Part shown: one piece after another, positions 2,597-63,955 of the stretch
How positions within the stretch are numbered: position 1 is the stretch's first letter
Layout: the number at the start of each line of letters is the position of its first letter
IMG/VR virus record: IMGVR_UViG_3300042894_002372
Span: 1 to 64,000 of that record
From: a virus
Strand: one strand, 5' to 3'
Length of the DNA: 64,000 bases
Made by a program: the position numbers and the translations under genes
Notes under the pieces: model-generated
What the model was told of the DNA's origin: nothing
Database searches by the model: none
What the model saw: the letters and a program-made list of their open reading frames with translations, nothing else

Positions 2597-2665
2597 CAAC
2601 CCTTACGGGTTACCAAAAACAACAACTTTTTAAAGAACGTCTAGTTAATTTCCTAACTAGTCTCT

Positions 2666-2694: not shown

Positions 2695-2703
2695 TTTGTT
2701 TTG

Positions 2704-2831: not shown

Positions 2832-2833
2832 AT

Positions 2834-2907: not shown

Positions 2908-2914
2908 ATTAAAT

Positions 2915-2988
2915 TGGTAGCCTGTCAAGGTAACGATCCTTGGTCGCTCGATTATCAGTCGAGTGCTCTACCTTTGAGCTAACGGGCT
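2915..2988 (-). tRNA. tRNA-Ile (GAU)
   Basis: A 74-nt cloverleaf with encoded CCA. The anticodon stem CTCGA/TCGAG closes CTGATAA (anticodon GAU). Acceptor AGCCCGT/ACAGGCT has one C-A mismatch. The T stem CAAGG/CCTTG is perfect but the loop is ATCGTTA, with the same A54/T58 swap seen in tRNA-Lys. Confidence 0.85.
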
Positions 2989-2993
2989 ATGAT

Positions 2994-3068
2994 TGGCGGG
3001 TCCTGCAGGAATCGAACCCACACCGCTTGGTTCGAAGCCAAGCATGATATCCATTTCACCAAGGACCC
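2994..3068 (-). tRNA. tRNA-Arg (UCG)
   Basis: A 75-nt cloverleaf with encoded CCA. The anticodon stem CTTGG/CCAAG closes CTTCGAA (anticodon UCG). Acceptor GGGTCCT pairs perfectly with AGGACCC. Confidence 0.95.
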
Positions 3069-3073
3069 TTAAC

Positions 3074-3163
3074 TGGCGGTGCGACTCGGATTCGAACCGA
3101 GAACCCGGATTACGCCGAGCGACAGATTAGCAATCTGCTCTAATACCATTATAGGACCACACC
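3074..3163 (-). tRNA. tRNA-Ser (GCU)
   Basis: A 90-nt class II tRNA with long variable arm and encoded CCA. Anticodon loop TTGCTAA gives GCU. Acceptor GGTGTGG pairs with TCGCACC with wobbles. T loop TTCGAAT. Confidence 0.95.
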
Positions 3164-3169
3164 GTTGTT

Positions 3170-3261
3170 TGGCGGAAGACGGAGGAGTCGAACCCCATCC
3201 CTGTTAAGAGAACCTGGTTTTCAAGGCCAGTCGCAGGACCGGTCCCGCTGCATCATCTTCC
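3170..3261 (-). tRNA. tRNA-Ser (UGA)
   Basis: A 92-nt class II tRNA with long variable arm and encoded CCA. Anticodon loop CTTGAAA gives UGA; the last anticodon-stem pair is C-A. Acceptor GGAAGAT pairs with GTCTTCC with one wobble. Confidence 0.9.
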
Positions 3262-3270
3262 TAAAATGTG

Positions 3271-4032
3271 TTAAAGATTTTTAAAAACTTTTTTTATAAT
3301 TGCACTGCGATCCAGTTTGGAACTGGCACCCAGCACAATGACTGCGTACTGTTGTTTGTTGTGTTCTACCAGCATGGCCACACACCATCCAGCAAGATTA
3401 GTAAATCCAGTCTTGCTCACGTCCACACGGGTAAACTCTGCCAACAGTGGACGGGATGTGTGAACCAGGTTCACAGAGCTGCCGCCTATTTTGTCAAGTT
3501 TTTTCAACAGCACAGTTGACTGCCCACTGGCTTCTTGTATAAACCAATAGTTGGCAGCAATCTGTACCATTTCTATTAGATCCCGTGCAGTGGACACATT
3601 GAACACACCCAGGCCTGACGGATCTACAAATTTAGTATTTCGAAGATTCCACATCCGGGCATGTCGATTCATTTCAGCTACAAAGGCAGATCGGCCTCCG
3701 GGGTAGTTCTGTGCAATGGTTTCGGCTGCTCCGTTGTCACTGCTGACCAGCATGGCCAGCAACAACTGTTCTCTGGTGTACCTGCCGGGCGGCAATCGAC
3801 TGCCGGTGTTTTTTCTCAGCACCAACTGCTGTTGAAGATCTCTGTTGTGATCCAATGCAACCATGGCAGTCATCAACTTGGTCACACTGGCCATTGATCT
3901 GATTTGATCACTATTTTGACTCAGTTCCGTGCGCTGTGCATTGATGTTGTAGACCAACACTGTGGGCTCACGTGCGTGGGCCGTTGCATTGGATAAAACT
4001 GTACAAAAAAGTACTGCGGCAAATAATTTCAT
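3271..4032 (-). CDS. Exported serine D,D-peptidase (penicillin-binding protein, S11 type)
   Basis: A 253-residue protein with a clear signal peptide (MKLFAAVLFC, ending NATAHA). All three penicillin-binding motifs are present: SVTK at about 49-52, SDN at 98-100 and KTG at 207-209. The family cuts D-alanyl peptide stems or cross-links of peptidoglycan in the periplasm; the length fits PbpG-like endopeptidases lacking the C-terminal beta domain of DacA. It lies between tRNA-Cys and tRNA-Ser(UGA), far from the lysis genes near 61-63 kb. It may remodel the host wall during infection or assist lysis. Unusual cargo for a phage and probably of bacterial origin. Confidence 0.85.
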   Translation of the reverse strand: MKLFAAVLFCTVLSNATAHAREPTVLVYNINAQRTELSQNSDQIRSMASVTKLMTAMVALDHNRDLQQQLVLRKNTGSRLPPGRYTREQLLLAMLVSSDNGAAETIAQNYPGGRSAFVAEMNRHARMWNLRNTKFVDPSGLGVFNVSTARDLIEMVQIAANYWFIQEASGQSTVLLKKLDKIGGSSVNLVHTSRPLLAEFTRVDVSKTGFTNLAGWCVAMLVEHNKQQYAVIVLGASSKLDRSAIIKKVFKNL

Positions 4033-4050
4033 ATCTTTATTTTGTAAAAT

Positions 4051-4125
4051 TGGAACACAGGACAGGACTCAAACCTGCATGATACGGATTTGCAATCCGT
4101 TGCGTAATCATTCCGCCACCTGTGC
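4051..4125 (-). tRNA. tRNA-Cys (GCA)
   Basis: A 75-nt cloverleaf with encoded CCA. The anticodon stem ACGGA/TCCGT closes TTGCAAA (anticodon GCA). Acceptor GCACAGG pairs with CCTGTGT, with a terminal G-U. Confidence 0.93.
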
Positions 4126-40404: not shown

Positions 40405-40481
40405 TATACTGGTGAGTAGGGATTGCGGAAACGATCGTATCCGTCATCTTCTGGATATACAGGATAGTCGTTTGCGCTCAT
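40404..40481 (-). CDS. 25-residue protein coupled to both neighbours
   Basis: MSANDYPVYPEDDGYDR... (25 residues). Its ATG overlaps the upstream TGA (ATGA) and its TAA overlaps the downstream ATG (TAATG). This double coupling is strong support for translation. Rich in Tyr, Asp and Pro; function unknown, possibly only a coupling peptide. Confidence 0.6.
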   Translation of the reverse strand: MSANDYPVYPEDDGYDRFRNPYSPV

Positions 40482-41662
40482 TTTTTAGGTTGCACTGCTG
40501 TTGGAACGTTTCGATACACACGCTTGGTAGGGTCGTACACAGTTTTCATTGGGCCTGCACCGGCCAACTGTTTGAGACGAGACATAGCCGCATCAAACTT
40601 GTCAGCATCCATATTGCCGACTTTTTCGCCTTCATCAATATCAGGCTCTGTCATTTTGCCTAGTCTAGAAATATGCGATTTGCTCATCAAGTGATCATCT
40701 TCCGCGTCCGGCTCTGTTCCGCCGTAACGACTAGCGTCTGCATGATGACGAATACCGGTTGCGGTCTTTTCAACTCGTCCTGGGGTAACAGGCGTAGTAT
40801 CCTGCTGGCCCGATGGAGGACGGCCACGGCCCCTCTCGCCCTCAGCCAGTTCGGGTTCTTGATTGGATTCAATGTAATCAGCCGCTGTGTCAATATAGTC
40901 AGCCGCATTAGTAATTTTCATTTGTACCCACTCTGGCATATTTTCGTTGTCATCCAACATGCCGTTGAGTCTGCGAGCCGCACGTACAATAGTGTTCAAT
41001 TGATCTTTTGCTTGGTCACCTTCGTAATCGTATTCGCCCGAGTCAGCGTGGTCAACAGAGTGGCCATCGCTGTCTACTTTGGCTTCCGCCATGCCTTGCT
41101 GACCGTAATCGGCTTCAATGTTATCCAACATACGATCATAAATTTGTTCAAAGTCATCATCGCCGTGATAGCCTGTATCGATAGAGATATCATCATACAT
41201 GTCTTGTATAGATTGTTCAATTTCTCGGCCGTATTTGCCTTGTTGTGCATTGTATAGCATGTCAAACCCGTTGTCGCCGGATCGTGCAACTTTGTGTAAA
41301 AATTCTTCAACATCATTGCTGCCAGTTTCCGCCACACCTTGAGGTTTATCGTTGGGGTTGGTAGTCAACATAAACTCTTTGTCTTTGTTGAACAGTTTGG
41401 CCTGCATTGTACGTGCGGCTTTGTTTGCGGCAGCCTTATCTTGGAATGCATAAGGATTGCCTGATTTGTCTCGGATCAGTTTTCCATTGAGGCGAATATA
41501 CCAAGTACTTGACTGCTGGTCAAGTGCATGATTCTCGTCATTGGCGCCACCGTCTGCACGATATGCTTGTGAGTCTTTGCCAAAGCCACTGGTGCTGTTA
41601 GCAACGTCACGTTCATATGCATCACGTGGGTCTCTCATTTCGTATAGATCATTTAGGTTCAT
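40478..41662 (-). CDS. Modular head-internal-type protein
   Basis: A 394-residue protein made of modules joined by repeated linkers. Module 1 (about 10-105): WYIRLNGKLIRDKSGNPYAF...LTTNP; linker QGVAE; module 2 with VEEFLHKVARSGDNGFDML; linker QGMAE; module 3 (about 200-270): GEYDYEGDQAKDQLNTIVRA...ADYIDTAADYIESN; linker ELAEGERGRGRPPSG (AT-hook-like); C-terminal basic tail. These modules recur in large marine phages without known roles. I read the GVAE-type linkers as likely prohead-protease sites. Confidence 0.6.
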   Translation of the reverse strand: MNLNDLYEMRDPRDAYERDVANSTSGFGKDSQAYRADGGANDENHALDQQSSTWYIRLNGKLIRDKSGNPYAFQDKAAANKAARTMQAKLFNKDKEFMLTTNPNDKPQGVAETGSNDVEEFLHKVARSGDNGFDMLYNAQQGKYGREIEQSIQDMYDDISIDTGYHGDDDFEQIYDRMLDNIEADYGQQGMAEAKVDSDGHSVDHADSGEYDYEGDQAKDQLNTIVRAARRLNGMLDDNENMPEWVQMKITNAADYIDTAADYIESNQEPELAEGERGRGRPPSGQQDTTPVTPGRVEKTATGIRHHADASRYGGTEPDAEDDHLMSKSHISRLGKMTEPDIDEGEKVGNMDADKFDAAMSRLKQLAGAGPMKTVYDPTKRVYRNVPTAVQPKK

Positions 41663-42360
41663 TATGCTTCCTCTACGTAGTCAGCTGACAGATCTTGTCG
41701 GCGTTGTCTAGCCTGGTACATTTCCAAGGCCATCTGTGCTTGGTCTAGATTTTTAAAACGGCTCTTCATTGCACGGTCACCATGACGAATTTCAAATCCC
41801 GCACGTTCGTCTCCGTATATTTCACATGAACGACCGTCTTCTAATGCAATGGTTTTAACCGGTGCTGATTCCGCATAGGTTGGTTCTTGCACAGGTGTTG
41901 TGGGCATTTGTACAATGGGATTCTCGTCAGTGGGATCTTCTGCAACAGCAGTGATTTGTTTGGCAATGATGCTGGCATCTTTCGCAGGCTTTTTACTGAT
42001 GTCACGATCTACTCGAACCGGGTCTTTTAAGTCAGTGTCTTTCTTTTCGTCAGCAATACTGTCAAGGTAGTCAGCAAAGGACTTTTTAACCTTGTCTAAC
42101 TTGTCTTCACTGGTCACTGCTTCTTCCAGGGCTTCCTCGTCGTGCTCGACACTTTCGCTGGAGCCAACCATGTAACCAGCACTGGGTGCTTTCTTGTTGG
42201 GATTGCCGCCTAGTACTGGACCTTGATCGGGCATTTTAAATAATGCAGGCATTTGTGGCACAGACCGTTGTTGTGCGTTCAATCCTTTTGAAACGCTATC
42301 TGGTGTGATAGTGCTTTCAATCAATGCAAGTCTCTGCATTATCGTGTAAATTTCATCCAT
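41662..42360 (-). CDS. Hypothetical modular protein
   Basis: A 232-residue protein. N-terminus MDEIYTIMQRLALIEST, with a LIE sequence that fits the T4-type (L/I)xE cleavage rule; a disordered acidic middle; AKQITAVAEDPTDE in the centre; and a C-terminal compact module RSCEIYGDERAGFEIRHGDRAMKSRF. No enzyme motif. One base overlap (TAATG-type) couples it to the next gene. Confidence 0.55.
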   Translation of the reverse strand: MDEIYTIMQRLALIESTITPDSVSKGLNAQQRSVPQMPALFKMPDQGPVLGGNPNKKAPSAGYMVGSSESVEHDEEALEEAVTSEDKLDKVKKSFADYLDSIADEKKDTDLKDPVRVDRDISKKPAKDASIIAKQITAVAEDPTDENPIVQMPTTPVQEPTYAESAPVKTIALEDGRSCEIYGDERAGFEIRHGDRAMKSRFKNLDQAQMALEMYQARQRRQDLSADYVEEA

Positions 42361-42361
42361 G

Positions 42362-42802
42362 TTATGCCCTCGCGTCCTTCAAATAACTTTTCAGTTGCCA
42401 CTGATACTTGCCGTGTTGGCTTTGGCGTTCTGCGGCAAAGTTTGCAATGTCTTCACGACCTTCGGCAGCACTGGCTTCGAAAACTTGGCGGCTAAGGTTG
42501 ATCATTATTTGGGTGTCTGCGAGTAATTCTTCCAGCATCAAGCGAGCACGTGGCACTTTGGTTTGATCCGGTATCTGTGTTAGTTCTAAAAAGCGGCTGA
42601 GACTGCCAGGGGCATATTCTTCTGTGGTGCGGATGTATTCAGCAATGGGATCTATAGCATCAAACGCATCTTCGTAGATCTTAGATAAAAACTTGTGCAA
42701 TTCACCAAAGTCTGGCCCTTCCACATTCCAATGAAAATAGTGTGCCTTCAAATAGTACGAAAATGTACTGGCCAAATAGGTCTTTAGTAAATCACTTAAC
42801 AT
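42362..42802 (-). CDS. dps: Dps-family ferritin-like protein
   Basis: A 146-residue four-helix protein. KAHYFHWNVEGPDFGELHKFLSKIYEDAFDAIDPIAEYI follows the Dps consensus, including the His of HWNV and the Asp-x-x-Ala-Glu of the ferroxidase site. Dps dodecamers bind DNA and oxidise iron with peroxide. No N-terminal basic tail is present. It sits among the modular head-type genes, so DNA or iron handling in the infected cell or virion are both possible. Confidence 0.85.
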   Translation of the reverse strand: MLSDLLKTYLASTFSYYLKAHYFHWNVEGPDFGELHKFLSKIYEDAFDAIDPIAEYIRTTEEYAPGSLSRFLELTQIPDQTKVPRARLMLEELLADTQIMINLSRQVFEASAAEGREDIANFAAERQSQHGKYQWQLKSYLKDARA

Positions 42803-42992
42803 TTGTTTTCCTTGCTTTCTTTCTCATACTTTTCGGGGTATTGGGAAAAGGGTCCGTGGTATATTTACCAGAAAAGAAACTATCGGGATTTCTTGACTGC
42901 ATGCCGCCCATGGGCATGGCCACAGTGGCAACGCTACCACTACTGGTGGCACCAACGGATGCATTTTCTTTGATAAATTCCTGAGCTCTCAT
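42792..42992 (-). CDS. Small protein with capsid-targeting-like N-terminus
   Basis: A 66-residue protein starting MRAQEFIKENASVG. The first nine residues closely match the capsid-targeting sequence of T4 internal proteins (EFIxE, cleaved after Glu). The rest (VATVAMPMGGMQSRNPDSFF...SMRKKARKTNVK) ends in a basic tail. Likely packaged and processed head peptide, by analogy. Confidence 0.6.
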   Translation of the reverse strand: MRAQEFIKENASVGATSSGSVATVAMPMGGMQSRNPDSFFSGKYTTDPFPNTPKSMRKKARKTNVK

Positions 42993-43270
42993 GTGAGTAT
43001 CTTTAGTAGATTTCCTTTGATTTTTCCGGGACCGTAATCCACACGCATATTTAAAACACGTATGGTGGCACCGGGAGAATTGACAAGTTCGTAACTGATT
43101 ACATATTCGCCTGGCTCTGCTTCGATCTGTATCATTTCTTCAAGATACTCATCTCGCCAACGCCAGGTTCTTTCAGCAAATAATTCGTCATCTACGTAAA
43201 CGCGGTAAACAGGTGGAGTTTCAGTCCAACTGCAATCAACGTCACATAGCACACGAATAAATTGTTTCAT
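42989..43270 (-). CDS. Small beta-rich hypothetical protein
   Basis: A 93-residue protein (VYRVYVDDELFAERTWRW...PGATIRVLNMRVDYGPGK), probably a beta sandwich. The late motif CTAAATA (43275-43281) ends four bases before the ATG. Similar in style to 55773-56207. Structural role is a guess. Confidence 0.6.
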   Translation of the reverse strand: MKQFIRVLCDVDCSWTETPPVYRVYVDDELFAERTWRWRDEYLEEMIQIEAEPGEYVISYELVNSPGATIRVLNMRVDYGPGKIKGNLLKILT

Positions 43271-43321
43271 TGTGTATTTAGTGTTATTAACCGCATAGTT
43301 AAATTACAAATAAGTATCTAT

Positions 43322-45274
43322 ATGGCCAACATAACAATTCCTATAGTATCTAAACGCACCGCACCGGTAGTAACAGGTGACGGCGGCGCACGTGATTTAG
43401 CTATGATTGAAACCATGAAACGCATGGCCGCTAGGCCCGAGCGCACAAGAAAAAATTTAACCCCTGTAAATTTACAATCAAATGTGTCAAGAAACACTCG
43501 TGTGGCACTGATACTTGCCCCAGAATGGGGTCCATATATTCCACCTTATAATCTTGCTAGACTGACCGCACTATCTAAAGCATCCGGGTATGCCACACAA
43601 TGTTTTGACATAAACATCGCGGCCTATCACTACGGAGATAAAGACCAGTGGAACGGATACAATGATTGGCGCTGGAAAAATGAAACATATTTTACTGACA
43701 TACACAGATCTATTGAACCGTTGTTGATCGAATACATTGACAAGATTGTTGCGTTTAACCCCACTGTTGTGGGTTTCAGCATTTATTACAGCAATAACCA
43801 ATGTACCAACTGGATTATACAACAACTAAGACAGCGTATCCCAGATGTAAGAATTATAGCAGGTGGGCCACAGGCCACGCAAGAACAACTTATTGCACCG
43901 GAGTTAATGGACCACATTGTGGTAGGTGAAGGAGAGATTATTTTCATGGATCTACTAGACAAGGTTGAAAATAACATAGTAATTACCGAGCATATACATC
44001 GCCACGACAAAGGTATTCGAATTGACCTTGACAGTATGCCCATACCAGACTACAGTGATTTTGATCTAAGCCTGTACACTATGGGCACAGGTATATCTTC
44101 TGAAATGAGTCGAGGCTGTGTGGCCAAATGTCAGTTTTGCAGTGAAACCACATTCTGGAGATATCGTAACAGGCAGGCGTTAAGCATTGTTGACGAAGTG
44201 GAATTCAATTACAATCAATACGGAATTAAAACAGTTTGGTTCATTGACAGTTTGGTCAACGGTGACCTAACAGAGCTACGTCAGTTTGCTCAAGAAATTG
44301 TAGCACGTAAAATAGATATTGACTGGCTAGGATATGCTAGATGTGATCATCGTATGGACATCAAATACTTGCAAGATCTCAAATCCAGTGGGTGTGCAGT
44401 ATTAAATTTTGGAGTTGAATCAGGATCTAATCATGTTCTTCAATTGATGAAAAAAAATGTCAAACGTGAAGCAGTAGAACAGAATCTAACTGACATGACA
44501 GTGATTGGCCTACACGCATTTACAAATTGGTTTACAGGATTCCCGGGCGAGACACAAAATGATGCTGCCGAAACAATGACACTACTATGGCGCACAAGAA
44601 ATACCACCATCACTGGCCGAAACTTTGGAATCTGTAATCTAAATCCAGACACGCCGTTGTCACAGAATAGAGAAGACTTTGATGTAAGTCGTGGGCACTA
44701 TGGCGGACATTGGGTGACCAATGATTATACAAATACAATTCTGCACAGATTAGTCAGATATAAATCCGCTAACATAATACTCAACCATTTGCACTGCGAC
44801 AACCGGACCCCGCCAGGTATTCAATCCCGACCGGAACGCCCGGGTATTGAATCGCACTATGAATTGTTGTACGACAAAAACAACATACAAGATATCATAC
44901 CCTACGAAATGTTTGACTATGCCATAATCAAGCTGTCAACAAATCCCATTGCTGATTCGTTGGTAAACGAAATATGGCCGTTGTTACGAGTATTATGGTT
45001 GGCAGTGGGCGAATTTAAATTGGATGTGAGATTTGATCCCACAATTGATTTGCCAGAATTCGGGCCTGGATCGTGTTTGAATGATGGCTTGCGTCCCAAT
45101 GATTATTTTAAAGCACATTACAAATTTGAAATTGGCAGACATGGTGCGTGGCATGCGGATTTTGCTACAGAATTACAAGCAGGCGGCCCCAATGGCAATC
45201 CCACTCAGGACGGAAAAACCTATGCATTTACTCATGCATGGCAAGGCACCGGAACCTGGGATCGCCCCGAATAA
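43322..45274 (+). CDS. B12-binding-domain radical SAM protein, plus-strand island
   Basis: A 650-residue protein. Start at MANITIPIVSK: the motif CAAATAAGTATC ends four bases upstream. Residues about 60-230 resemble a cobalamin-binding Rossmann domain (VALILAPEWGPYIPPYNLARL; VVGFSIYYSN; RIIAGGPQAT; HIVVGEGEI). SRGCVAKCQFC gives C-x3-C-x2-C near residue 270; GVESGSNHVLQLMKK and WFTGFPGET follow the family. Members do methylations, ring contractions or similar. Coupled with the desaturase gene downstream. Confidence 0.88.
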   Translation: MANITIPIVSKRTAPVVTGDGGARDLAMIETMKRMAARPERTRKNLTPVNLQSNVSRNTRVALILAPEWGPYIPPYNLARLTALSKASGYATQCFDINIAAYHYGDKDQWNGYNDWRWKNETYFTDIHRSIEPLLIEYIDKIVAFNPTVVGFSIYYSNNQCTNWIIQQLRQRIPDVRIIAGGPQATQEQLIAPELMDHIVVGEGEIIFMDLLDKVENNIVITEHIHRHDKGIRIDLDSMPIPDYSDFDLSLYTMGTGISSEMSRGCVAKCQFCSETTFWRYRNRQALSIVDEVEFNYNQYGIKTVWFIDSLVNGDLTELRQFAQEIVARKIDIDWLGYARCDHRMDIKYLQDLKSSGCAVLNFGVESGSNHVLQLMKKNVKREAVEQNLTDMTVIGLHAFTNWFTGFPGETQNDAAETMTLLWRTRNTTITGRNFGICNLNPDTPLSQNREDFDVSRGHYGGHWVTNDYTNTILHRLVRYKSANIILNHLHCDNRTPPGIQSRPERPGIESHYELLYDKNNIQDIIPYEMFDYAIIKLSTNPIADSLVNEIWPLLRVLWLAVGEFKLDVRFDPTIDLPEFGPGSCLNDGLRPNDYFKAHYKFEIGRHGAWHADFATELQAGGPNGNPTQDGKTYAFTHAWQGTGTWDRPE

Positions 45275-45305
45275 CAATTTAGCAGTAGTTTTGCTTAAAT
45301 ACTCA

Positions 45306-46010
45306 ATGACTGAACTTATCTATACCCTAATAGTCACACATATCACTATAATCTGTGTTACATTATACCTACATCGCGGGCAAGCACATCGCGGCATTGT
45401 TTTTACTCCTGTGTTAGAACACTTCATGCGCTTTTGGTTATGGGGAACTACCGGCATGGTGACCAAACAATGGGTTAGCATCCATCGCAAACATCACAGA
45501 TTTAGTGATGCAGAAGGTGATCCACATACTCCGCATGTGTACGGCATAGGTCGTGTGTTGTTCCGTGGCGCAGGCCTGTATCACTCAGCCAGCCGAGATG
45601 CTGACATGGTGGCACAATATGGCGTAGGTACACCGGATGACTGGATGGAACGCAATGTGTACACTGCACACAGCAGACTGGGCATTGTGTTAATGCTGGC
45701 AGTTGATGTTGCGTTGTTTGGTGTGTGGGGTGTGTTAATCTGGGGTATACAAATGGCATGGATACCGTTCTGGGCAGCCGGAGTTATCAACGGCATTGGA
45801 CATTGGTGGGGATATAGAAATGGCGAAACTAAAGATCACAGCAGAAACATTGTGCCTTGGGATATTGTTGTTGGTGGCGAATGCCTGCATAACAACCATC
45901 ATCTGGATCCTGCTAACCCTCGACTGAGCCGTCGTTGGTTTGAATTTGATGCAGGATGGATGTGGCTCACAGTATTTAGACTAGTAGGACTGGCTCGCTT
46001 ACGTAGTTAA
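45306..46010 (+). CDS. Membrane fatty acid desaturase
   Basis: A 234-residue protein with the three His boxes of acyl desaturases: HRGQAH near residue 24, HRKHH near 61 and HNNHH near 197, and several hydrophobic segments (ELIYTLIVTHITIICVTL; MLAVDVALFGVWGVLIWG). It inserts a double bond into fatty acids, di-iron dependent, in the inner membrane. The late motif TTAAATA ends four bases before the ATG. Its stop shares bases with the convergent 46007-46195 gene. It may alter host membrane fluidity. Confidence 0.9.
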   Translation: MTELIYTLIVTHITIICVTLYLHRGQAHRGIVFTPVLEHFMRFWLWGTTGMVTKQWVSIHRKHHRFSDAEGDPHTPHVYGIGRVLFRGAGLYHSASRDADMVAQYGVGTPDDWMERNVYTAHSRLGIVLMLAVDVALFGVWGVLIWGIQMAWIPFWAAGVINGIGHWWGYRNGETKDHSRNIVPWDIVVGGECLHNNHHLDPANPRLSRRWFEFDAGWMWLTVFRLVGLARLRS

Positions 46011-46195
46011 CGCAGTTCTTTGATTGAGCCCACGTGCCAATCTTCAATGCGGTACTGTGCTTTGATCATTTGTCTGGCCACATGAGTGTTGGGAGCCCAG
46101 ACCACTGCATCAACCCAGCCCACATATCCAGGATTTTGAACACGCACTTTGGCAGTCCATTGCTTTGCACCTCGAACGATTTCTTTGGCTCGCAT
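46007..46195 (-). CDS. Small protein with capsid-targeting-like N-terminus
   Basis: A 62-residue protein starting MRAKEIVRGAKQW, a weaker version of the MRAxEF tag. The rest (GYVGWVDAVVWAPNTHVARQMIKAQY) is one compact domain known from phage proteins as an unassigned module. The ATG overlaps the upstream TGA (TGATG). Confidence 0.55.
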   Translation of the reverse strand: MRAKEIVRGAKQWTAKVRVQNPGYVGWVDAVVWAPNTHVARQMIKAQYRIEDWHVGSIKELR

Positions 46196-47688
46196 CAGCA
46201 GTTCCAGCGACGACGTGCTTTACAGATGGCCTTGTCTGGCGTTTTGGCACATGAAATACTGTGCATCTTCATTTGTCCGCGACTGCGGCTACAATAACTC
46301 TTTCTACGCTTGCTGGCCTTGCTACCCCGCTTTAGTTTGCTGGGTTTGGTAGTCACAGCAGTCTTTAGTTTAGAACCAGGATTCTCTCTGCGATAAGCAT
46401 TCACAGCCTTTTGACTCATGCCTGCAGTACGATCTCGTTTGTTGGCCTTTTGCCAGTCTTCGTTCAGTTGCGAAGTCACAGCAAACGCATACAGTTCATC
46501 TTCGGTCAGGCTTTCTAGGTCCTCCCATACTGCTTCAGCATCTACACCATTTTGTTCAGCAATGCCTTCGATAATAGATTCAATAAGATCAAACTCTTCT
46601 GTCAAGCCTTCTTCAGCATTGGGTTTGTCACGGAGTGGGCCGCCTGTGACCCAGGCATCGCAGGTTCTACGGCTGGCACATTTGAATTTTAAGAACTTAC
46701 AATAACCCATCTCACCTGCATCAATTACACCGGCTGCATCCGCAGGAGAGTCACTGTCGATGCCTTGAGCAATGCAGTCCAGGGTGTGTTGACGTATATC
46801 AAAAGCCGCACAGTTGCCGCATAGGCTCGACTTGGCTTCGTCTACTGAGTCCAAGTTCCACTCATCAACTTTTTTCATCCAGAACTTAGTGTTGGGCATG
46901 TCTGGATTTAGCGGCCCATAGCCATAGTCATCAATGGCTTTTTGTCTGTTCTTGAGATTGAGTGTAATGTCTTGTGTAGCAGGCGGGCACTTGTTATCAG
47001 AGTCTTCTACTATGCTTTCAGCAGACACACAGTTGGGAACCTGACGGCCACCTTTGTTCTTCATGCCCTGTTGTTGATAACCGTCCCAGCATTTTTCATC
47101 CAGTTGTGCTTCCGCCGCCCCTTGTTCATCTATGCTTTCTCCAGTACCTACGTTATGTCTAAATTCAATGGCCTTAGTATCTGTGTTGTATATTGTAAAG
47201 TAAGTGTTTGGATCGTGCGTTTCTTTGGCCATTGATTTAACAACTTCAAAAGCTTCGTTTTTAGTTAATACTTTTGAAGATACATCTTTGCTGTTGATAT
47301 AAACTTTATAAACTCTATCCCGGCCACTATTTAAATTCAAATCTCGATTTACTCCTAGTCTTTCGTCAGGAGATAATACTTTATTTTTAAACCAACGGAA
47401 CAATAACCAGAAGAAATAGGACATAGCAATGCCATTGACTACCATTTGGGCAACATCGTTAAAGCCTTCCGCCACACCTTCTGATTTGTTGCCATAGTTG
47501 CCCGCACCTTTTTTGCGACACTGTACCAGTCGACCGGATGCATAAGCACTGGGCCATACTTTTGCACTAGCCTTGACCTTGTAGTAGCAGGCATCTTTCT
47601 TTTCCATCAGATCTGAATATTCAACCACAGGTCCACCACAGTGCGGACAAGTGTGTTGTGATTCTGTAATGATATCTTTTATGTTCAT
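46195..47688 (-). CDS. Large modular Cys-rich head-internal-type protein
   Basis: A 497-residue protein. N-terminus MNIKDIITE fits the (I/L)xE cleavage rule. Then a zinc-ribbon-like CPHCGG; a KVKASAKVWPSAYASGRL module ending GNYGNKSEGVAE; a segment with one hydrophobic stretch (MSYFFWLLFRWF); IDEQGAAE; CWDGYQQQGMKNKGGRQVPNCV; a Cys-rich module (LCGNCAAFD...CASRRTCDAW); GIAEQNG; and a basic C-terminus (KAVNAYRRENPGSKLKTAV...RRKSYCSR...RRRWNC), which resembles the DUF6321-type module. No enzyme motif. Modules joined by xGxAE linkers. Confidence 0.6.
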   Translation of the reverse strand: MNIKDIITESQHTCPHCGGPVVEYSDLMEKKDACYYKVKASAKVWPSAYASGRLVQCRKKGAGNYGNKSEGVAEGFNDVAQMVVNGIAMSYFFWLLFRWFKNKVLSPDERLGVNRDLNLNSGRDRVYKVYINSKDVSSKVLTKNEAFEVVKSMAKETHDPNTYFTIYNTDTKAIEFRHNVGTGESIDEQGAAEAQLDEKCWDGYQQQGMKNKGGRQVPNCVSAESIVEDSDNKCPPATQDITLNLKNRQKAIDDYGYGPLNPDMPNTKFWMKKVDEWNLDSVDEAKSSLCGNCAAFDIRQHTLDCIAQGIDSDSPADAAGVIDAGEMGYCKFLKFKCASRRTCDAWVTGGPLRDKPNAEEGLTEEFDLIESIIEGIAEQNGVDAEAVWEDLESLTEDELYAFAVTSQLNEDWQKANKRDRTAGMSQKAVNAYRRENPGSKLKTAVTTKPSKLKRGSKASKRRKSYCSRSRGQMKMHSISCAKTPDKAICKARRRWNC

Positions 47689-48119
47689 TTTTTAGTTCCT
47701 TTTGTGCTGACATTTATTGCTGGTCCTGAACGATTGGCATTGGGATCTTTACGGCGTTTTCTGGCTGCGGCACTGGCCCGGCCTTTTTTACCCAGAGCAT
47801 GTGCTTTGGCCTGTGGCAAACACTTGGGTTTGCCTTCTGATTCCGACCCTCGAGCACAGTCACCACGTATTTTACCGTCGGGTCCAAAGCGTACCCATTT
47901 GTCTTTGAACCAGTCACGAAGATTTTCATTCACGTGTGTGTTGGCATGTGCCTCACACATGCCACATGTTTCACACACCATTTCCATTTCAACTGATTCG
48001 TTCTGTTTTCGTTTACCGGCACAGTGCGCCTTTTGTGAGAAGCCTCGAGGGTGGCTGCAATTGATACTGCTTTTGTATTTTTTGCTCCACTTTTCGAATA
48101 CAAACTCACTTGCTTTCAT
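47685..48119 (-). CDS. Modular Cys-rich basic protein with targeting-like N-terminus
   Basis: A 144-residue protein starting MKASEFVFEKW. Module INCSHPRGFSQKAHCAGKR, then VCETCGMCEAHANTHVNE (Cys/His metal-site-like), then WFKDKWVRFGPDGKIRGDC, KPKCLPQAKAHALGKKGR and a basic tail, resembling the DUF5872-type module. Probably binds nucleic acid in the head; inference. Confidence 0.6.
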   Translation of the reverse strand: MKASEFVFEKWSKKYKSSINCSHPRGFSQKAHCAGKRKQNESVEMEMVCETCGMCEAHANTHVNENLRDWFKDKWVRFGPDGKIRGDCARGSESEGKPKCLPQAKAHALGKKGRASAAARKRRKDPNANRSGPAINVSTKGTKK

Positions 48120-49183
48120 TTTTTCTTACCTCGTCTCATATTTAGTTGCCACTGTGCCATCCTGCGGCGTTCACCTGTGCTGGATCCAGCAATCTTTTCC
48201 AGTTGGCCCAAGGTGGCTTTTTTAGGAATCCCTACTCGCTTGCTCAAGCCCTTGCGTCCAGGATTCTTACCATCTGCAAAATTCTCTGCTACACCTTGCT
48301 TGGGAATCAACAATTCAGGCATACGATACTCACTGACATCTACTGGATATGGCTGTAGTGATGCTTTGTATAATTCAGCATATTGTTCTTGTTCTTCAGG
48401 TGTCTTGGCTCTGTAAAACTTGTTGGCAATGGCCATGTCGCCTACTAAAGTTCCTGGTGGAATTGAAATCTTTTTTGGACCATAGTATTTTAATTTGTCA
48501 GAATCTTTGTTGGTCAAACTGTAAAAGGTTGATTCCCATTTGTCTGGATGCAGGGCATATTGTGCAGTTGCTCTTTCTGGCACAAACTCTGCAAGTGTAT
48601 CTGCACCAGGATGAAATTTACCTAACTTGGATAAACTTATAGCAGTATCATTGCTTTCGCCTTCCGCCACACCTTGTGGGCCCTGTTCAACAGCTACATA
48701 AGCAGGACCGGTATAACCATCTGGATACTTATGAAAGTGCTGAATAGTTCTATGCCAACCTTCTAGCAAATCATAACCATCGGGACGTTTAACAAGTATC
48801 ACAGGTTCTCTACGAACACCACCTTGTTGTTGTGCTAATGCCGCTTGAGTGGCATGTCTTTCTTTGTCTTTTGGAACACCCATACCTAAATCACTACTCC
48901 CACCGGCACGGCCTATTAATAGTTGTTTAGTCTTTGGATCAAACATATCCATTGTAAACTTCATATCGGGTATCAGTTGCCATTTAGTGTTAATAGTAAG
49001 ACCTGCACCTTGCACTTTTTCTATAATGCCGTTTTTAACAGCGTCTGCAGGGAGATTACTAAAATTGCCTTTGTTGGGTACTAGCCAATCTTTAAGGACA
49101 TACTCAGGCCAAGTGGGCAACAGACTCTTAACATATTGTAATAGTCTATCTCTATATTCGATTAAAAATTCATTGGCTCGCAT
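48116..49183 (-). CDS. Modular protein with ParB-like core and targeting-like N-terminus
   Basis: A 355-residue protein starting MRANEFLIEYRDRLL; LIE fits the T4 cleavage rule. Residues about 130-190 have EPVILVKRPDGYDLLEGWHRTIQ, the pattern of ParB/Srx-fold domains. Linkers GPQGVAEGESNDT and KQGVAENFADG separate a middle domain and a basic C-terminal module (GRKGLSKRVGIPKKATLGQL...AQWQLNMRRGKKK). Activity of the ParB-like part cannot be read. Confidence 0.6.
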   Translation of the reverse strand: MRANEFLIEYRDRLLQYVKSLLPTWPEYVLKDWLVPNKGNFSNLPADAVKNGIIEKVQGAGLTINTKWQLIPDMKFTMDMFDPKTKQLLIGRAGGSSDLGMGVPKDKERHATQAALAQQQGGVRREPVILVKRPDGYDLLEGWHRTIQHFHKYPDGYTGPAYVAVEQGPQGVAEGESNDTAISLSKLGKFHPGADTLAEFVPERATAQYALHPDKWESTFYSLTNKDSDKLKYYGPKKISIPPGTLVGDMAIANKFYRAKTPEEQEQYAELYKASLQPYPVDVSEYRMPELLIPKQGVAENFADGKNPGRKGLSKRVGIPKKATLGQLEKIAGSSTGERRRMAQWQLNMRRGKKK

Positions 49184-49184
49184 G

Positions 49185-52100
49185 TTAACTCACTATTGGT
49201 AGCACAGTAACATCTGTGCCATAGCTGTAGCCATTGTCGGTCAACCACTGTGTGGCCACACGGTTAGCATCACGCTGTTGATTGCCTATGCCGGAAAATC
49301 TATGCAGTTCATTACCATCAGAATCTACAATCTTCCAAGCACCTGTAAATGCGCCTGGTACAGCTCGTTGTTGTGCTAGGTCTGCGGTGGATCCTGCCAC
49401 AGGTGTAGATGCCGTTTCTTCTGCTGGTTCAACTTGATAGTTGCCATCAAAGTCGTTTTCTCTGGCCCATAGTGCGGCTAACTCATTGGCTTTTGCTCTA
49501 GTGTTTTCTGCAGGACGGAAACGATATACTTCGCGATTTAATCCGTCAATAATTTTCCACTGTCCTGTTGGGCTTGTGGCTGTACGACCTGCGGCTATTG
49601 GCATGTCTAAGCCAACAATTCCAACTCCACCGACGGTACGTATGCCAAACATACGTTCAGCCTGACCTCGTTGTAGGCTATGTGGACCGTGTTCAATGTA
49701 ATCATTGAGGCGAACCAATGCCTCTTCATCATTGGTGATTCCATCAGCATCCTCTACTGAGTTGCCAGTTTGTTTGTTGTAGATTTCATATTTGGGAGTT
49801 TGCTCGGCAGGTGCTTCGCGAACAGGAACAGCTGACCAACCGTTGTTTCTGAAGAACTCTTCCTCGGTGGCACCACTGGTGTTTAAATTCCATTCTTTTC
49901 TGGCTTTTTTCATTGCTTCAAATTCAGTAGAAGCAACAACCTCTATACCCTGACTCTGATATGGAGAATCACTGCTACCAGTGACTTTCCAAACAAAGGT
50001 CTGCTGAGATTCTTCATATGGACGCAACGGTTTGGCAGTCATATCTTTAGCCGTGGCCCAATCTGGGTATTCTGCCCGGCCTTTTTCAATTGCTTCTTCC
50101 TTGCTGGTAGCAACAACTTCAACACTGGCACCAAAACCTGGGCGGCCCACACGCCACCAATATTTCTTACCTTCGGTTGGATCTTTTTTAATTTTGCGTT
50201 CTAGTTGTGCTTGTTTAACAAAACTACGCAAGGCAGCTGCAGGAATCTTGCCTGCCACATATTCACTGAAGTACTTGATAGTATCGTCACCCTTTTGATC
50301 CTGCGTCAACAACTTGTACAGTTTCTTCAAGTATTCTTCGCGATACATTTCGGGGTTCAGGGCCGCACTCATGGCCACTGTGAATCGCAACAGAGTGTTT
50401 TCGATCTTGTCAAAGTTTTCGTCCAACCAATCGCCACCGGGTGAGCGGAATTCAATGTGTCCGTCTTTGGTATTGATACTGGTATACTTGCTAGTAGCAC
50501 CTGAGTGTATGGCCTTGCTTGCCAAACTGTCCAGGTTGCCTTTCATTTTGTCCAGCAAACGTTCGGCTTCGTCAGGTTTAGTGCGCACTTGATCGCGTAC
50601 CAATTTCATTGCTGATTTAGCGTAGGTATTGCCAGCACGACCAAAGTTGTCCAGCACATACTCGTCGCCCATTAACAGGGCTAGTTTAACAAAGTCCAAG
50701 TTTTCTCTACTGTAGTTGGGTACAGATATGTTGATGTGCAGGCCTGTTGAATCATTGGTGTAGCAACCATATACCTTGGCCCACTTTTTAACCTTGTTCA
50801 AGTCACTTAATATATCGTCAATGGGCAAGGGTGGACTTACAAACTCCAGGCCTACATCATCGCTGTCATCGGCTTCTAAACTGCCATCAGGTTCCACAAT
50901 ATAATGTTGTGCAGTTGGGCTGGGTCTTGTTACCCCGCCACTGTGGTAGTTGCCGCTGGCTCGAACGTCACGTCCTATAGCATCTTGAAATTCGTTGGCA
51001 ACATCTTCGATACTGGCCTCACCGCCACCCTGTGAATACAAGTGAGGCCAATTTATATCATAATTGCTTTCAACGTCCTGCATGGTATTGATATTATTAT
51101 CTTCCAGCCATTCTGATTCTAAATCTGCATTTTGATTAAAATCTTCTTGAGCGGATTCACGTGCGGCATCATACCAGTAGTTGCCGTAGCCTTCTTCAAC
51201 AATTTTTTCGGCAGCATTGCGATATACTTGTCTATCGGGCTCTGGGTATTCACCGTAATCGCCGGGTTCTATACCTAGTATTTCTGCAATTTCATCTGCA
51301 CTGGCGTTTTCTTTAATGTAGTTGTAAACAAATTCAACTTCGTCTCCGTCCCAACGAGTATCAAACGACTCACTTAGCCATTCGTAATATTGATCCTGCA
51401 TCCGGTCACGCAGTCTAGTGACATCGCCGCGGCTGTTGTAATCTCCATCGTAGAAGAAATCATAAGCCTCCTGTATGCTACTAACACCTTCATCGTAACT
51501 GTAATCGGCTTCCATTTGACCGTCGTCATCGCCGCCTTCCACATTGGGCACAATCATTTCAAATTCCATGCCGGCAATAGCACCGGTCTTGGCCGCTTCA
51601 CGACGCAGGCTACCTGTGCTCATGTTGATTTCGAACAACTCATCTTCGTATATCAGCGGCAACTGCCCAGTTTCTTTAAACTCACGCAGTGCATTGGCCA
51701 AGCCGGTCATTAACAAGCCTGGTTGTCCTTGACTGTTGGTCTTTAGTCCTAGTTTGTTTGCTTCTTTACCCACAGCACCAGGACGTACATCTCGGGTCAG
51801 AGCCATGCTAAAGCGTGGATCCTTGGCCTGCTTCTTTGTGGGAATATATCCTGATGCTTCTGCTAAATCATCTGTTTGGCCGGCAGCAAAATGTTCCGGG
51901 TGCAGTTTGGCATAGTTACGCATGAGTACGCCGGCACGAGCATTGGCTTCGTTTTCGTATGGACTGCCAGTTTCGCCTGCGTCAGATCCCATGTCACTGC
52001 CATCACGTTCGTGTTGATGTTTGTGTGTGAGTTCATGTGCCACTGTGCGCAACACATCCATGATGTGTCGTTGTCCCCAGGCCACTTCTAACATTTTTTC

Positions 52101-53072
52101 ATTGTCGTTGTAGCGACCAAACGTCTTGTGCCGCACTGGCCACTGTGGATCTTTACGCAGGCGAACACGTGGCATCTGTTCAATTGTTAATTCTGCAACA
52201 CAAAACTCCACAAAGTCTGTGAGTATATCTTCATCTGACTTGGGTTCTTCATTCAAGAACATCTGTGTTGTGGGACTTACTCCGTCCCATGAAGCACCAA
52301 CATCTTCTGTGGCTTTGAATCCGTAGGTGAATTTAAATGGTTTATCGATTTCAATAGACCGTTCTTTAAGACTCAGTGCTCGATCTTTGGCAGCGGTTCT
52401 GGCATCATACAACTGTTGTATCACACCTTGTGAACGCAACATCTTGTACGCAATGTTTTCTGGACCCAGTTCACCATGCTGATCAAGTCCGGCTTGACGC
52501 ATCTTTTTAATCTTGGCAGCAGTGTTGGTTAGACGTTTTAGGTTGCCAGATTTCACTGCTGATTCAATACGATGCTTGATCACATCGTACTTGCTCTTGA
52601 CCGCAGTGTCGTTTATTGTGGAACGTTTTTTCAGTGGAATGTTGATCCAGTCGTTATTCAGCACACTGAATATGCCTTGACTCACTGCTGATTTGTTGGC
52701 GTTTTCCACATAGAGTTCTACATCGTAGCCACCAATTTTGATATTGTGTGTTTCGTTGTACTGAAACTTTTTAGCATCAAACAGCTCGCGATACACTTCA
52801 CTCACATCTGCTTCAGGCAGGTCAACTACCAAGTGCAAGTCTATGTCACTATGTGGAGTATATGTGTAACCAGCATTGCTGCCGGACAAGGTAATGTCTT
52901 TGACATTTAAGTCGCCAATCCCCAAACTTTGTTTAAAGTCTTCAGCAATTTTTAACAGCGTGGCCCGCACCTGTGGGCGCATTTTATTGCCCTGCCAGAT
53001 GCGTGGGTTTAACTGTTCATTAAATTTAACAGCGTCAGCAAGGTTGTAGGAATCTAGTTCAAGAATATTCAT
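49185..53072 (-). CDS. Giant multidomain protein: nucleotidyltransferase, metallopeptidase-like, amidoligase-like
   Basis: A 1295-residue protein; start at MNILELDSYNLADAV. Domains in order: nucleotidyltransferase (about 60-130, LSGSNAGYTYTPHSDIDLHLV, i.e. GS...DxD); metallopeptidase-like with HELTHKHQHERDGSD near 350; amidoligase-like (about 500-960: GMEFEMIVPN, GLEFVSPPLP, TGLHINISVPN, HIEFRSPGG); then several small repeated modules (WWRVGRPGFGASVEVVA, FVWKVTGSS, YEIYNKQTGNSVEDAD, and two WKI(I/V)D modules at the end). An effector polyprotein is likely. A terminator and a late-motif promoter precede it. Confidence 0.7.
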   Translation of the reverse strand: MNILELDSYNLADAVKFNEQLNPRIWQGNKMRPQVRATLLKIAEDFKQSLGIGDLNVKDITLSGSNAGYTYTPHSDIDLHLVVDLPEADVSEVYRELFDAKKFQYNETHNIKIGGYDVELYVENANKSAVSQGIFSVLNNDWINIPLKKRSTINDTAVKSKYDVIKHRIESAVKSGNLKRLTNTAAKIKKMRQAGLDQHGELGPENIAYKMLRSQGVIQQLYDARTAAKDRALSLKERSIEIDKPFKFTYGFKATEDVGASWDGVSPTTQMFLNEEPKSDEDILTDFVEFCVAELTIEQMPRVRLRKDPQWPVRHKTFGRYNDNEKMLEVAWGQRHIMDVLRTVAHELTHKHQHERDGSDMGSDAGETGSPYENEANARAGVLMRNYAKLHPEHFAAGQTDDLAEASGYIPTKKQAKDPRFSMALTRDVRPGAVGKEANKLGLKTNSQGQPGLLMTGLANALREFKETGQLPLIYEDELFEINMSTGSLRREAAKTGAIAGMEFEMIVPNVEGGDDDGQMEADYSYDEGVSSIQEAYDFFYDGDYNSRGDVTRLRDRMQDQYYEWLSESFDTRWDGDEVEFVYNYIKENASADEIAEILGIEPGDYGEYPEPDRQVYRNAAEKIVEEGYGNYWYDAARESAQEDFNQNADLESEWLEDNNINTMQDVESNYDINWPHLYSQGGGEASIEDVANEFQDAIGRDVRASGNYHSGGVTRPSPTAQHYIVEPDGSLEADDSDDVGLEFVSPPLPIDDILSDLNKVKKWAKVYGCYTNDSTGLHINISVPNYSRENLDFVKLALLMGDEYVLDNFGRAGNTYAKSAMKLVRDQVRTKPDEAERLLDKMKGNLDSLASKAIHSGATSKYTSINTKDGHIEFRSPGGDWLDENFDKIENTLLRFTVAMSAALNPEMYREEYLKKLYKLLTQDQKGDDTIKYFSEYVAGKIPAAALRSFVKQAQLERKIKKDPTEGKKYWWRVGRPGFGASVEVVATSKEEAIEKGRAEYPDWATAKDMTAKPLRPYEESQQTFVWKVTGSSDSPYQSQGIEVVASTEFEAMKKARKEWNLNTSGATEEEFFRNNGWSAVPVREAPAEQTPKYEIYNKQTGNSVEDADGITNDEEALVRLNDYIEHGPHSLQRGQAERMFGIRTVGGVGIVGLDMPIAAGRTATSPTGQWKIIDGLNREVYRFRPAENTRAKANELAALWARENDFDGNYQVEPAEETASTPVAGSTADLAQQRAVPGAFTGAWKIVDSDGNELHRFSGIGNQQRDANRVATQWLTDNGYSYGTDVTVLPIVS

Positions 53073-55000: not shown

Positions 55001-55756
55001 TTATCGATTATATGTTTTTTCGTCTATATAATCAGGGTTGATGTGTGTAAAATCAGCGTGGATGCTGTTTACTTGTTTTTCTAATTGTAACACATTCTCC
55101 AGCCACTCCACAACCTTGACATTGCCGATCTGACGCGATTCGCGAATATAATTTTGGGCCTGCTCAGAAATGCCTAATTTCTTATCAAACACTGCGCGGA
55201 TTGCTGAATCTGGTTGACCATACAAGTCAGCAATAACTTGATCTTTGTCACGGTCGTTGCCTTTGAGATACATTTTGCGTATTTCGGATGCAGAGTTAGC
55301 ATCAACTCCATTTACTTTAAAGTTGATAGTGGGAGTGATCACAACGTAGCCATGTTTGGTCATGGGCTTGATTGACTTTTTATTTTTGGGCAATGGTTGT
55401 AGATAACCTGGGGAGCCATCTTTTTTAGGAGCAAAGTTAAAACGTTCAGCATCCTTGGCACTCACAGCAAATACCAGCACTGTGTTGGCTTTTTCTTCGT
55501 CAGGAACAGCACTGGTAATTTCAACAGCTTGATATGGATTTTTTACATTGACAATGCGACTGGCAGGAATACCCAGTTTGGTCATCATCATTACCTTGTC
55601 GGAGTAACTGAACGGACTAGTAACAGGTGCTTGTACACCACTGGTAGCAATGTACACACTGGCATCGCCGTACTGTTTGTTCAGCCAATCGTAGCTGGCC
55701 TTATGGCCTTTATGAAATGGATGGAAACGTCCTGGGTAGATTACTAGATAATTCAT
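55001..55756 (-). CDS. Cytidylyltransferase-fold nucleotidylyltransferase
   Basis: A 251-residue protein with YPGRFHPFHKGHKASYDWL (HxGH motif) and NSASEIRKMYL (where the family has SSTxIR). Such enzymes join a nucleotide to a phosphorylated small molecule, for example NMN adenylyltransferases. The C-terminal 80 residues are a helical extension. A late motif CATAAATA with TATAAT overlapping the ATG precedes it (55757-55770). Confidence 0.75.
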   Translation of the reverse strand: MNYLVIYPGRFHPFHKGHKASYDWLNKQYGDASVYIATSGVQAPVTSPFSYSDKVMMMTKLGIPASRIVNVKNPYQAVEITSAVPDEEKANTVLVFAVSAKDAERFNFAPKKDGSPGYLQPLPKNKKSIKPMTKHGYVVITPTINFKVNGVDANSASEIRKMYLKGNDRDKDQVIADLYGQPDSAIRAVFDKKLGISEQAQNYIRESRQIGNVKVVEWLENVLQLEKQVNSIHADFTHINPDYIDEKTYNR

Positions 55757-63310: not shown

Positions 63311-63955
63311 TTACCGCCCAGTCCACACCCAGGGATCATTGATAATTGGTGTACCGTCAGATCGTTGCATGAAATTGCCACCGTGCATATCCCAATGATA
63401 TCCCCGGGATTTGCCAAGATTAAATAGTTCGTCAAGAGTACTAACCATCAGTGGCATTCTCTCGGCACCCAATTTTTTCTCTAGTACCGCATACTCGTTT
63501 GGCTGATTTCTTTGCATGGAGTTCATAAACCCCTTCACAGTGAGAGCTTTGTATTGATGAAGCCAACTCCTAATCAGACGACCTAGGTCATCCAGGGCAA
63601 ATCTTATTGGACCCTGAGTCTTTTTCAATGGCTCGGTTCGTATCATTAGATAGCGATTGTTGCCCCACATAAAACTGTCATGGCCATAAAATCGCGGCAA
63701 CAAGGGATTGTTGCTGTGGTTGGTACAGTAGTCGTACCAGGTAAAAAACATCTTTTGATCAGGACTAAAGTCCTTTTTTCCTTGGGTGCCAAATATCTTC
63801 AACACCAAGCCGGTGCTGGGTTCTAAGTATGCCGTTTGGTCCACACCCTTGCCCAGATATTGATAACCCTTGGCTTCCAGTGCAGATCTGATGCCTTTGT
63901 CTGTGGTTGAAAATTCTTCTAGATTCTGCTCGTCGATAAATTCCTGCGATCTCAT
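63311..63955 (-). CDS. Kinase-like protein with capsid-targeting-like N-terminus
   Basis: A 214-residue protein starting MRSQEFIDEQNL, the clearest T4-like head-targeting tag in the window. The rest has a protein-kinase-like order: KGVDQTAYLEPSTGLVLKIF (Gly-rich turn and Lys), LMIRTEPLKKT hinge, and at 187-214 HWDMHGGNFMQRSDGTPIINDPW, giving the catalytic HxDxHxxN and metal DP motifs as in aminoglycoside/RIO-type kinases. If the tag works as in T4, it would be packaged and injected. RBS AAGGAG. Confidence 0.7.
   Translation of the reverse strand: MRSQEFIDEQNLEEFSTTDKGIRSALEAKGYQYLGKGVDQTAYLEPSTGLVLKIFGTQGKKDFSPDQKMFFTWYDYCTNHSNNPLLPRFYGHDSFMWGNNRYLMIRTEPLKKTQGPIRFALDDLGRLIRSWLHQYKALTVKGFMNSMQRNQPNEYAVLEKKLGAERMPLMVSTLDELFNLGKSRGYHWDMHGGNFMQRSDGTPIINDPWVWTGR

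Follow-up and report, generated by a model that had tools for sequence, protein, structure and literature searches.

We analyzed putative packaged proteins encoded in a stretch of viral DNA of 64,000 nucleotides (nt), positions 1 to 64,000 of IMG/VR record IMGVR_UViG_3300042894_002372 (hereafter the window); the record is an 80,420-base fragment of an uncultured virus. Several genes of the window contain short linkers of the QGVAE type, whose consensus of 15–18 bases, (C/G/A)AAGGTGTGGCGGAA(GGC), reads in frame as (Q/E/K)GVAE(G). Since the linker is fixed as DNA and the homology between relatives breaks there, we conclude that it is a recombination seam between cargo modules; its amino acid sequence suggests that it is probably a protease site as well. 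We consider it likely that these genes encode packaged polyproteins whose joints double as protease sites and recombination seams. For comparison we used independent IMG/VR contigs across the same locus (L numbers denote loci, G numbers larger records). One of them, L003, is 99.99% identical to the window locus along 13.9 kilobases (kb), so that an assembly artefact is unlikely to account for the structure of the locus. L047, part of the 347-kb record G003, shows 83–90% identity to most of it.

An initial annotation of the window, made from its letters alone, had proposed that the linkers QGVAE, QGMAE, EGVAE, QGAAE and GIAE join small domains. All of these exist, and they exceed chance by far: a set of 1099 proteins from relatives of the window contains 45 copies of QGVAE and 67 of GVAE, where shuffles give 0.2 and 4.2. 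Any linker would be expected to sit at module borders; what surprises is that its DNA is fixed. As codon counts that include loci picked by DNA pattern are biased, our claims on DNA conservation are based on loci chosen by protein similarity, on a comparison of pentapeptides within them and on a scan with a synonymous sequence. In the protein-selected loci CAAGGTGTGGCGGAA makes up 28 of the 49 QGVAE contexts (57%), with about 0.5% expected from codon usage. Among the other common non-overlapping pentapeptides listed, the commonest DNA version reaches at most 32%, mostly less than 13%. Seam codons deviate strongly from background, with GCG for Ala at 79% vs 8%, GTG for Val at 79% vs 27% and GGT for Gly at 82% vs 39%. 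The conservation runs from the Q codon and fades past the next Gly codon, as judged from the biased sample. A scan of IMG/VR with a 14-base core gave in-frame GVAE in 161 of 174 distinct matches, among the matches listed; of the remainder, again among those listed, five lie in another sense frame, six are antisense and two are outside open reading frames (ORFs). The 18-mer seam was found in at least 120 IMG/VR stretches, its synonym with commoner codons in 16 stretches in a completed scan. Cellular genomes yielded 26 single exact matches of the 18-mer, scattered in unrelated bacteria mostly of high guanine-cytosine content; these look like chance, and we rejected the seam as an element of cellular genomes. 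No description of a GVAE joint was found in the open-access literature searched.

Homology boundaries between relatives cluster at the seams. Of 1352 such boundaries 241 are no more than 6 nt from a seam (null: mean 42, at most 66 in 1000); for the protein-selected loci alone the numbers are 87 of 520 (null: 15, at most 27). Within the window seven of the eight linker sites are breakpoints with relatives. The eighth, EGIAE at 46555, may not be a real linker, because it has ordinary codons and is the sole listed site without a homology break. Between L083 and L156 the identity is 98.7% along 232 nt, and beyond the seam the two are unrelated; L003 and L112 have one module in common with a seam at either side. 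The clearest case of exchange is the gene at 40478–41662, whose end segments recur among relatives and whose middle differs: it is a single module of 76 amino acids in the window, about 320 amino acids in L007/L008, roughly six modules joined by seams in L020 and different modules again in L047. A short conserved DNA site thus borders the exchanged modules, as in cassette systems, and a protease site alone does not sufficiently explain both this exchange at the linker DNA and its conservation.

A phage recombinase or homing endonuclease that recognizes the core and moves modules like cassettes would fit the fixed 15–18-base sequence, its direct orientation and the swaps between two seams that leave the flanks intact. 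The core is not an inverted repeat, and neither tyrosine (PF00589) nor serine (PF00239) recombinases were found in the window record and five relatives, three of them contigs of 300–347 kb; these records are possibly incomplete, and homing endonucleases lay outside the survey. We regard site-specific recombination as improbable. The simplest cause of seam upkeep would be a self-reinforcing homologous exchange, in which modules with a common seam can be swapped in frame and the seam DNA would be retained for this reason. It could also be asked whether the seam acts in the RNA, for example by pausing translation, by marking a site of RNA processing or by serving as an internal start, with module exchange a by-product of domain boundaries. 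It lies nearly always on the sense strand and in a single frame, is G-rich and offers a possible GTG or ATG at the third residue (Val at 62, Met at 10 of 75 sites). Such a role would leave the breakpoints at the seams unexplained, no start-like spacing was apparent by inspection, and we hold it to be very improbable. An internal translation start at the linker GTG or ATG was rejected because about 21% of the Val codons are GTA, where no start is possible, and the AAGG stretch is too close.

The second conserved element is an N-terminal tag. The initial annotation had assigned tags resembling the T4 internal-protein targeting sequence to five proteins, had suggested a search for similar starts in related phages and had noted a fit of tags and linkers to a rule of cleavage after hydrophobic-x-Glu. 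All five tags are present, all on the minus strand; similar starts were found in relatives, and the fit was confirmed. According to PMC9026906, the capsid-targeting sequence of IPIII consists of ten N-terminal residues that are enough for head entry, and T4 gp21 cuts after (L/I)-x-E. The tag pattern M(R/K)xxEF(I/L/V)xE is compatible with both, and tags and linkers match the gp21 rule. T4-type capsid-targeting sequences comprise 10–19 N-terminal residues with a hydrophobic-x-Glu end, and the tags here are of this type. The strict tag is present on 160 of 2960 complete ORFs, versus about 8 with shuffled N-termini, and is enriched on proteins with linkers (19 of 106) relative to the others (141 of 2854; p = 2e-6). 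Seventy-five tags have the form MR(A/S)xE(F/L)(I/L/V/M)xE; they have nine residues, that of IPIII being one longer. Tag DNA is not conserved like linker DNA, Ala being encoded by GCG in 1 of 75 cases. These counts bear on the possibility that the proteins are ordinary cytoplasmic or structural ones whose tags and linkers are chance or lineage relics, which could be argued from the missing gp21 in the window record and from tagged proteins without a known virion homologue. Tag, linker and in-frame counts exclude chance, the tagged proteins scanned gave no match to DNA-replication or metabolic families, and homologues were detected in virions (see below). This explanation is largely refuted and, in our judgement, hardly credible.

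Tags and linkers can stand in for each other. Of 190 tagged proteins, 71 have a module behind the tag whose twin lies behind a linker elsewhere, the commonest offset being 0. Examples are MRAQEFIVE/AFDQPYATDL vs QGVAE/AFDQPYATDL and MRATEFIVE/NADQAAVSAL vs QGVAE/NADQAAVSAL, the slash marking the predicted cut; among the further frequent offsets are cases where a second hydrophobic-x-E intervenes, as in QGVAE/DLTE/VVDLDTAF. Since identical modules follow either element in the same register, both are probably cleavage sites. Hydrophobic-x-E immediately precedes the module in 25 of 25 distinct contexts of DUF6321, 20 of 21 of WSxKYK, 14 of 14 of SQAQ and 36 of 44 of NFADGK, the middle residue being free. 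Other modules that were counted do not begin at this spacing from a site of the kind, thus the rule is not universal in these counts. Cyanophage cousins without GVAE DNA retain the motif (GLSE/DWQ, VIGE/DWQ, SMNE/DWQ), and this persistence before modules is what a protease rule would look like. We also observed that in S-SRM01 (L264 5335–7164), DSL-LC02 (L265 5125–7122) and S-CREM2 (L266 4804–6276) the genes for the small and the large terminase flank the string of modules, and that a single gene of S-SRM01 holds modules distributed over three window genes.

The same data bear on whether the cargo remains uncut. The tag could package multidomain proteins that act whole, with GVAE as a flexible linker and the DNA identity arising from recombination at short stretches. 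Polyvalent phage proteins are known, the virion RNA polymerase of phage N4 is packaged unprocessed (PMC5512222), and conservation at the DNA level by itself requires no cleavage. That the same module follows tag or linker in the same register past Glu, and that hydrophobic-x-E is kept where GVAE DNA is missing, as in the cyanophages, argues against uncut cargo, which we consider unlikely.

The gp21-like protease that the initial annotation suggested looking for was not found in the window's own 80-kb record, a fragment; it was found near gp23 in five of five gp23-bearing relatives, namely G003 (about 90% DNA identity to the window locus), G002 (340 kb) and three more contigs that carry both gp21 (PF03420) and gp23 (PF07068). 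Neither gene was found in the remaining 15 contigs searched. The relatives have gp21, gp22 and gp23 in the order of T4, and we therefore take the window phage to be, most likely, a T4-type jumbo phage that possesses gp21. Their predicted gp23 and gp21 N-termini hold sites of the hydrophobic-x-E type (KYLKE/NASAG and YLQE/H).

Virion mass spectrometry is available for a cultured relative, cyanophage S-CREM2, in which ORF137, ORF156, gp21, a SAM hydrolase, an APH-like kinase and a cytidylyltransferase were detected (PMC10665884, Table 3). ORF137 holds the C-terminal module of the window protein at 46195–47688 (71% identity, 96 residues), and ORF156 is homologous to the N-terminal module of the protein at 49185–53072 (32%). 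The detected enzymes start with MKDFDSFLEE (SAM hydrolase), MKRFDAFLTE (kinase) and MKNFSSFLTE (cytidylyltransferase), and two further virion proteins, ORF13 and ORF136, with MKDLHSFLTE and MQTFSMFFSE. Proteins named cytidylyltransferase are found in cyanophage virions, and elsewhere in this family the N-termini read MKKFSAFLKE (P-SSM3), MKKFSAFLNE (Syn30) and MKGFSNFLIE (MC09); the enzyme of HTVC008M has no tag at its N-terminus. A Cas9-like virion protein of S-CREM2 (OR473000.1 7704–10313, complement) contains a tag-like RFASFMAE/A at residues 18–25, which was not counted because a 17-residue lead precedes it. The main texts of the mass-spectrometry studies of S-SZBM1, S-SCSM1 and S-CREM1 mention few cargo proteins by name.

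These findings can be combined into a model in which the locus would encode cargo proteins of a jumbo T4-type phage. The N-terminal tag would carry each protein into the prohead, where gp21 would cut it off after hydrophobic-x-Glu. Several genes are strings of independent modules with a near-invariant sequence of 15–18 bases at each internal joint. At the level of DNA, related phages recombine at the seam and thereby swap, add or remove whole modules with the frame intact; at the level of protein, the seam places V-A-E before each module, in many cases with another hydrophobic-x-E (for instance GSLNE) behind it. Inside the head gp21 would then set each module free, and all of them would go into the host together with the DNA; cleavage at GVAE and injection are the predicted steps here. 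Transfer into the host is suggested by the tag and by the virion detection of homologues.

Prohead entry and release of domains by the phage protease, as first proposed, agree with gp21 in relatives, the virion homologues of S-CREM2 and the interchange of tag and linker. They do not account for the DNA conservation, nor do they extend to the largest protein: the product of 49185–53072 contains no GVAE linker and has 25 hydrophobic-x-E motifs where 25.4 are expected, which leaves it out of the polyprotein reading. The proposal that the bigger proteins are linker-joined strings of domains therefore holds for the seam-bearing genes and fails for this one. The gene at 40478–41662 has linkers and starts with MNLNDLYE, not a canonical tag, and the Dps-like gene has neither element.

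Several observations weigh against the model. About 82% of the homology boundaries lie away from any seam, and no tyrosine or serine recombinase was seen in the six records as recombination machinery. In related module pairs from protein-selected loci, codon identity is 0.66 in the seam vs 0.55 in the module (n = 61), a weak difference, and in close pairs it is 0.68 vs 0.69. S-CREM2, S-SRM01 and DSL-LC02 have hydrophobic-x-E joints and no GVAE DNA in the regions read. The linker Val at P3 extends the T4 rule (L/I)-x-E, though Val occurs in tags too. Among the S-CREM2 ORFs the strict tag is borne by 4 of the 50 that were detected and by 2 of the 166 that were not (p = 0.027), a modest enrichment in a count that misses the kinase because of start calling. 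The authors of that study regarded non-structural virion proteins as possibly co-purified contaminants (PMC10665884), and we found no virion proteomics of a seam-bearing phage.

Table 1. Linkers, modules and genes of the cargo locus (window positions).
Feature	Position	Strand	Remarks
Polyprotein gene, 394 amino acids	40478–41662	-	Constant ends and swappable middle; end segments common to L007/L008, L047 and L020
Seam 2, QGMAE	41084–41098	-	CAAGGCATGGCGGAA; homology ends at 41097 (L007/L008), 41101 (L047), 41086 (L020)
Module between seams 1 and 2, 76 amino acids	41099–41326	-	Other modules in its place in relatives
Seam 1, QGVAE	41327–41341	-	CAAGGTGTGGCGGAA, exact core; 92%-identical homology to L007/L008 starts at 41327
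Dps/ferritin-like gene	42362–42802		PF00210, E 1.6e-20; neither tag nor linker, though within the tagged cluster
Tagged protein, 66 amino acids	42792–42992	-	Tag MRAQEFIKE, 42966–42992; orthologues in G002 and G003 also tagged
Polyprotein gene, 497 amino acids	46195–47688	-	Tag MNIKDIITE, 47662–47688; C-terminal DUF6321 module
EGIAE, doubtful linker	46555–46569	-	Ordinary codons GAAGGCATTGCTGAA; no breakpoint with any relative
EGLTE linker, absent from the initial annotation	46597–46611	-	Breaks at 46599–46604 vs L034, L037, L042, L020, L047, L010
Degenerate seam, QGAAE	47110–47124	-	Two mismatches to core; L020 homology ends at 47123
Seam 3, EGVAE	47467–47481	-	GAAGGTGTGGCGGAA; homology breaks at 47462 (L034), 47464 (L037), 47477 (L020)
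Tagged protein	47685–48119	-	Tag MKASEFVFE, 48093–48119; WSxKYKSSIxC module; phrog_727 match
Tagged polyprotein, 355 amino acids	48116–49183	-	Tag MRANEFLIE, 49157–49183
Module with its two seams	48284–48677	-	Shared with L112 at 91%, exactly this stretch, no flanking homology within the gene
Seam 5, QGVAE	48284–48298	-	CAAGGTGTAGCAGAG; breakpoints at 48286 (L007, L008, L047), 48284 (L112)
Seam 4, QGVAE	48662–48676	-	CAAGGTGTGGCGGAA; breakpoints at 48659 (L042, L047), 48667 (L037), 48677 (L112)
Large multidomain protein, 1295 amino acids	49185–53072	-	Nucleotidyltransferase module, metallopeptidase-like region, amidoligase domain; no seams
Tagged kinase-like protein	63311–63955	-	Tag MRSQEFIDE, 63929–63955; phrog_15752, E 7e-5

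The individual proteins (Table 1) differ in how much can be said of their modules. The C-terminal DUF6321 module of the 46195–47688 protein corresponds to Pfam PF19846 (E 1.8e-8), pieces of this protein were matched separately among 453 IMG/VR stretches, and it has 16 hydrophobic-x-E motifs where 6.8 are expected. The WSxKYKSSIxC module of the 47685–48119 protein sits after GVAE in L042, L061 and L152, and the N-terminal module of the 48116–49183 protein after a linker in L042. In the 66-residue protein at 42792 the sequence behind the tag, NASVGATSSGSVATV, resembles the predicted mature start of gp23 in relatives, YLKE/NASAGSTASGNIATL; judging from this resemblance it may be a scaffold-interacting or decoy peptide of gp23 origin. 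The 63311–63955 protein has a conserved DxHxGN...DP, and the best PDB matches of its AlphaFold model are protein kinases (E 5e-4, low template-modeling score), which is weak but consistent support for a kinase-like protein. In the large protein at 49185–53072 Pfam gave PF12224 (E 1.6e-7) and weak matches to PF01909 and PF06114, the latter with E 0.0034, below the cut-off.

A radical-SAM-like gene on the plus strand (ORF 43262–45274; 43310–45283) lies inside the minus-strand cargo cluster. It is missing in L007, L008, L020 and L047, where homology skips from 43306–43309 to 45275–45296, suggesting a recent insertion. Adjoining it on the plus strand is a fatty-acid-desaturase-like ORF (45081–46010) with HRGQAHRG, HRKHHRF and HNNHH seen by eye. 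Further away we noted an untagged cytidylyltransferase-like gene at 55001–55756 (phrog_395, E 6e-8) and, at the left end of the window, ten transfer RNA genes (48–4125).

If the model is true, it explains how phages that lack close relatives in culture maintain a varying stock of packaged proteins: additional modules would drop in at a standard joint and be freed by a protease that is already there. In-frame CAAGGTGTGGCGGAA could moreover serve as a sequence handle, since scans of viral metagenomes would delimit many uncharacterized modules that are likely delivered into bacteria and whose role would become directly testable. We see even chances for the wider proposition that one sequence of 15–18 bases works on two levels, as a DNA joint for cargo exchange in a large, mostly aquatic group of phages and as a prohead-protease site, and so forms an open-ended cassette system for host-delivered proteins.

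Among known systems, the T4 internal proteins share with the window proteins a short N-terminal tag with a hydrophobic-x-Glu end on diverse, unrelated cargo, and the relatives of the window share the gp21-gp22-gp23 block. In T4 each internal protein is a single protein that is cut once, whereas here many are strings of modules with repeated internal sites, and the consensus start is MR(A/S)xEF. In the head maturation of phiKZ, 201phi2-1 and SPN3US many packaged proteins are likewise cut after Glu, with several sites per propeptide. There the additional sites lie in mostly discarded propeptides and not between folded modules, and the parts of that literature available to us report no joint at the DNA level.

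Module exchange at short conserved motifs occurs in tail-fibre genes of T4-type phages, and shufflons and invertible fibre genes have in-frame short repeats at module borders. These systems affect host-range proteins, and in shufflons a dedicated recombinase acts on inverted repeats. The seams, in contrast, are direct repeats that occur in many genes and phages and are at the same time predicted protease sites; a dedicated recombinase as in integrons or shufflons was not found, with no PF00589 or PF00239 match in the six possibly incomplete records.

The window proteins are best placed among the packaged multidomain "polyvalent" phage proteins. Unrelated domains (nucleotidyltransferase, kinase, peptidase) are combined in one polypeptide, each also occurring alone or in other combinations, and entry with the DNA is predicted in both cases. 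For polyvalent proteins Iyer et al. (2017, PMC5512222) predicted processing from embedded zinc peptidases and noted a paucity in cyanobacteria; the word "linker" does not occur in their text. In the seam-bearing window proteins we found no embedded zinc peptidase, and the one candidate match is the weak PF06114 hit, below the cut-off, in the large protein that lacks seams; here a separate prohead protease would cut a standard joint, and this joint is conserved as DNA. A survey of jumbo phages mentions polyvalent proteins and gp21 and no linker or cleavage site. Capsid-targeting tags and packaged multidomain proteins are thus known; the standard joint conserved as DNA appears to be new and, if its double role is proven, would be a categorically new element.

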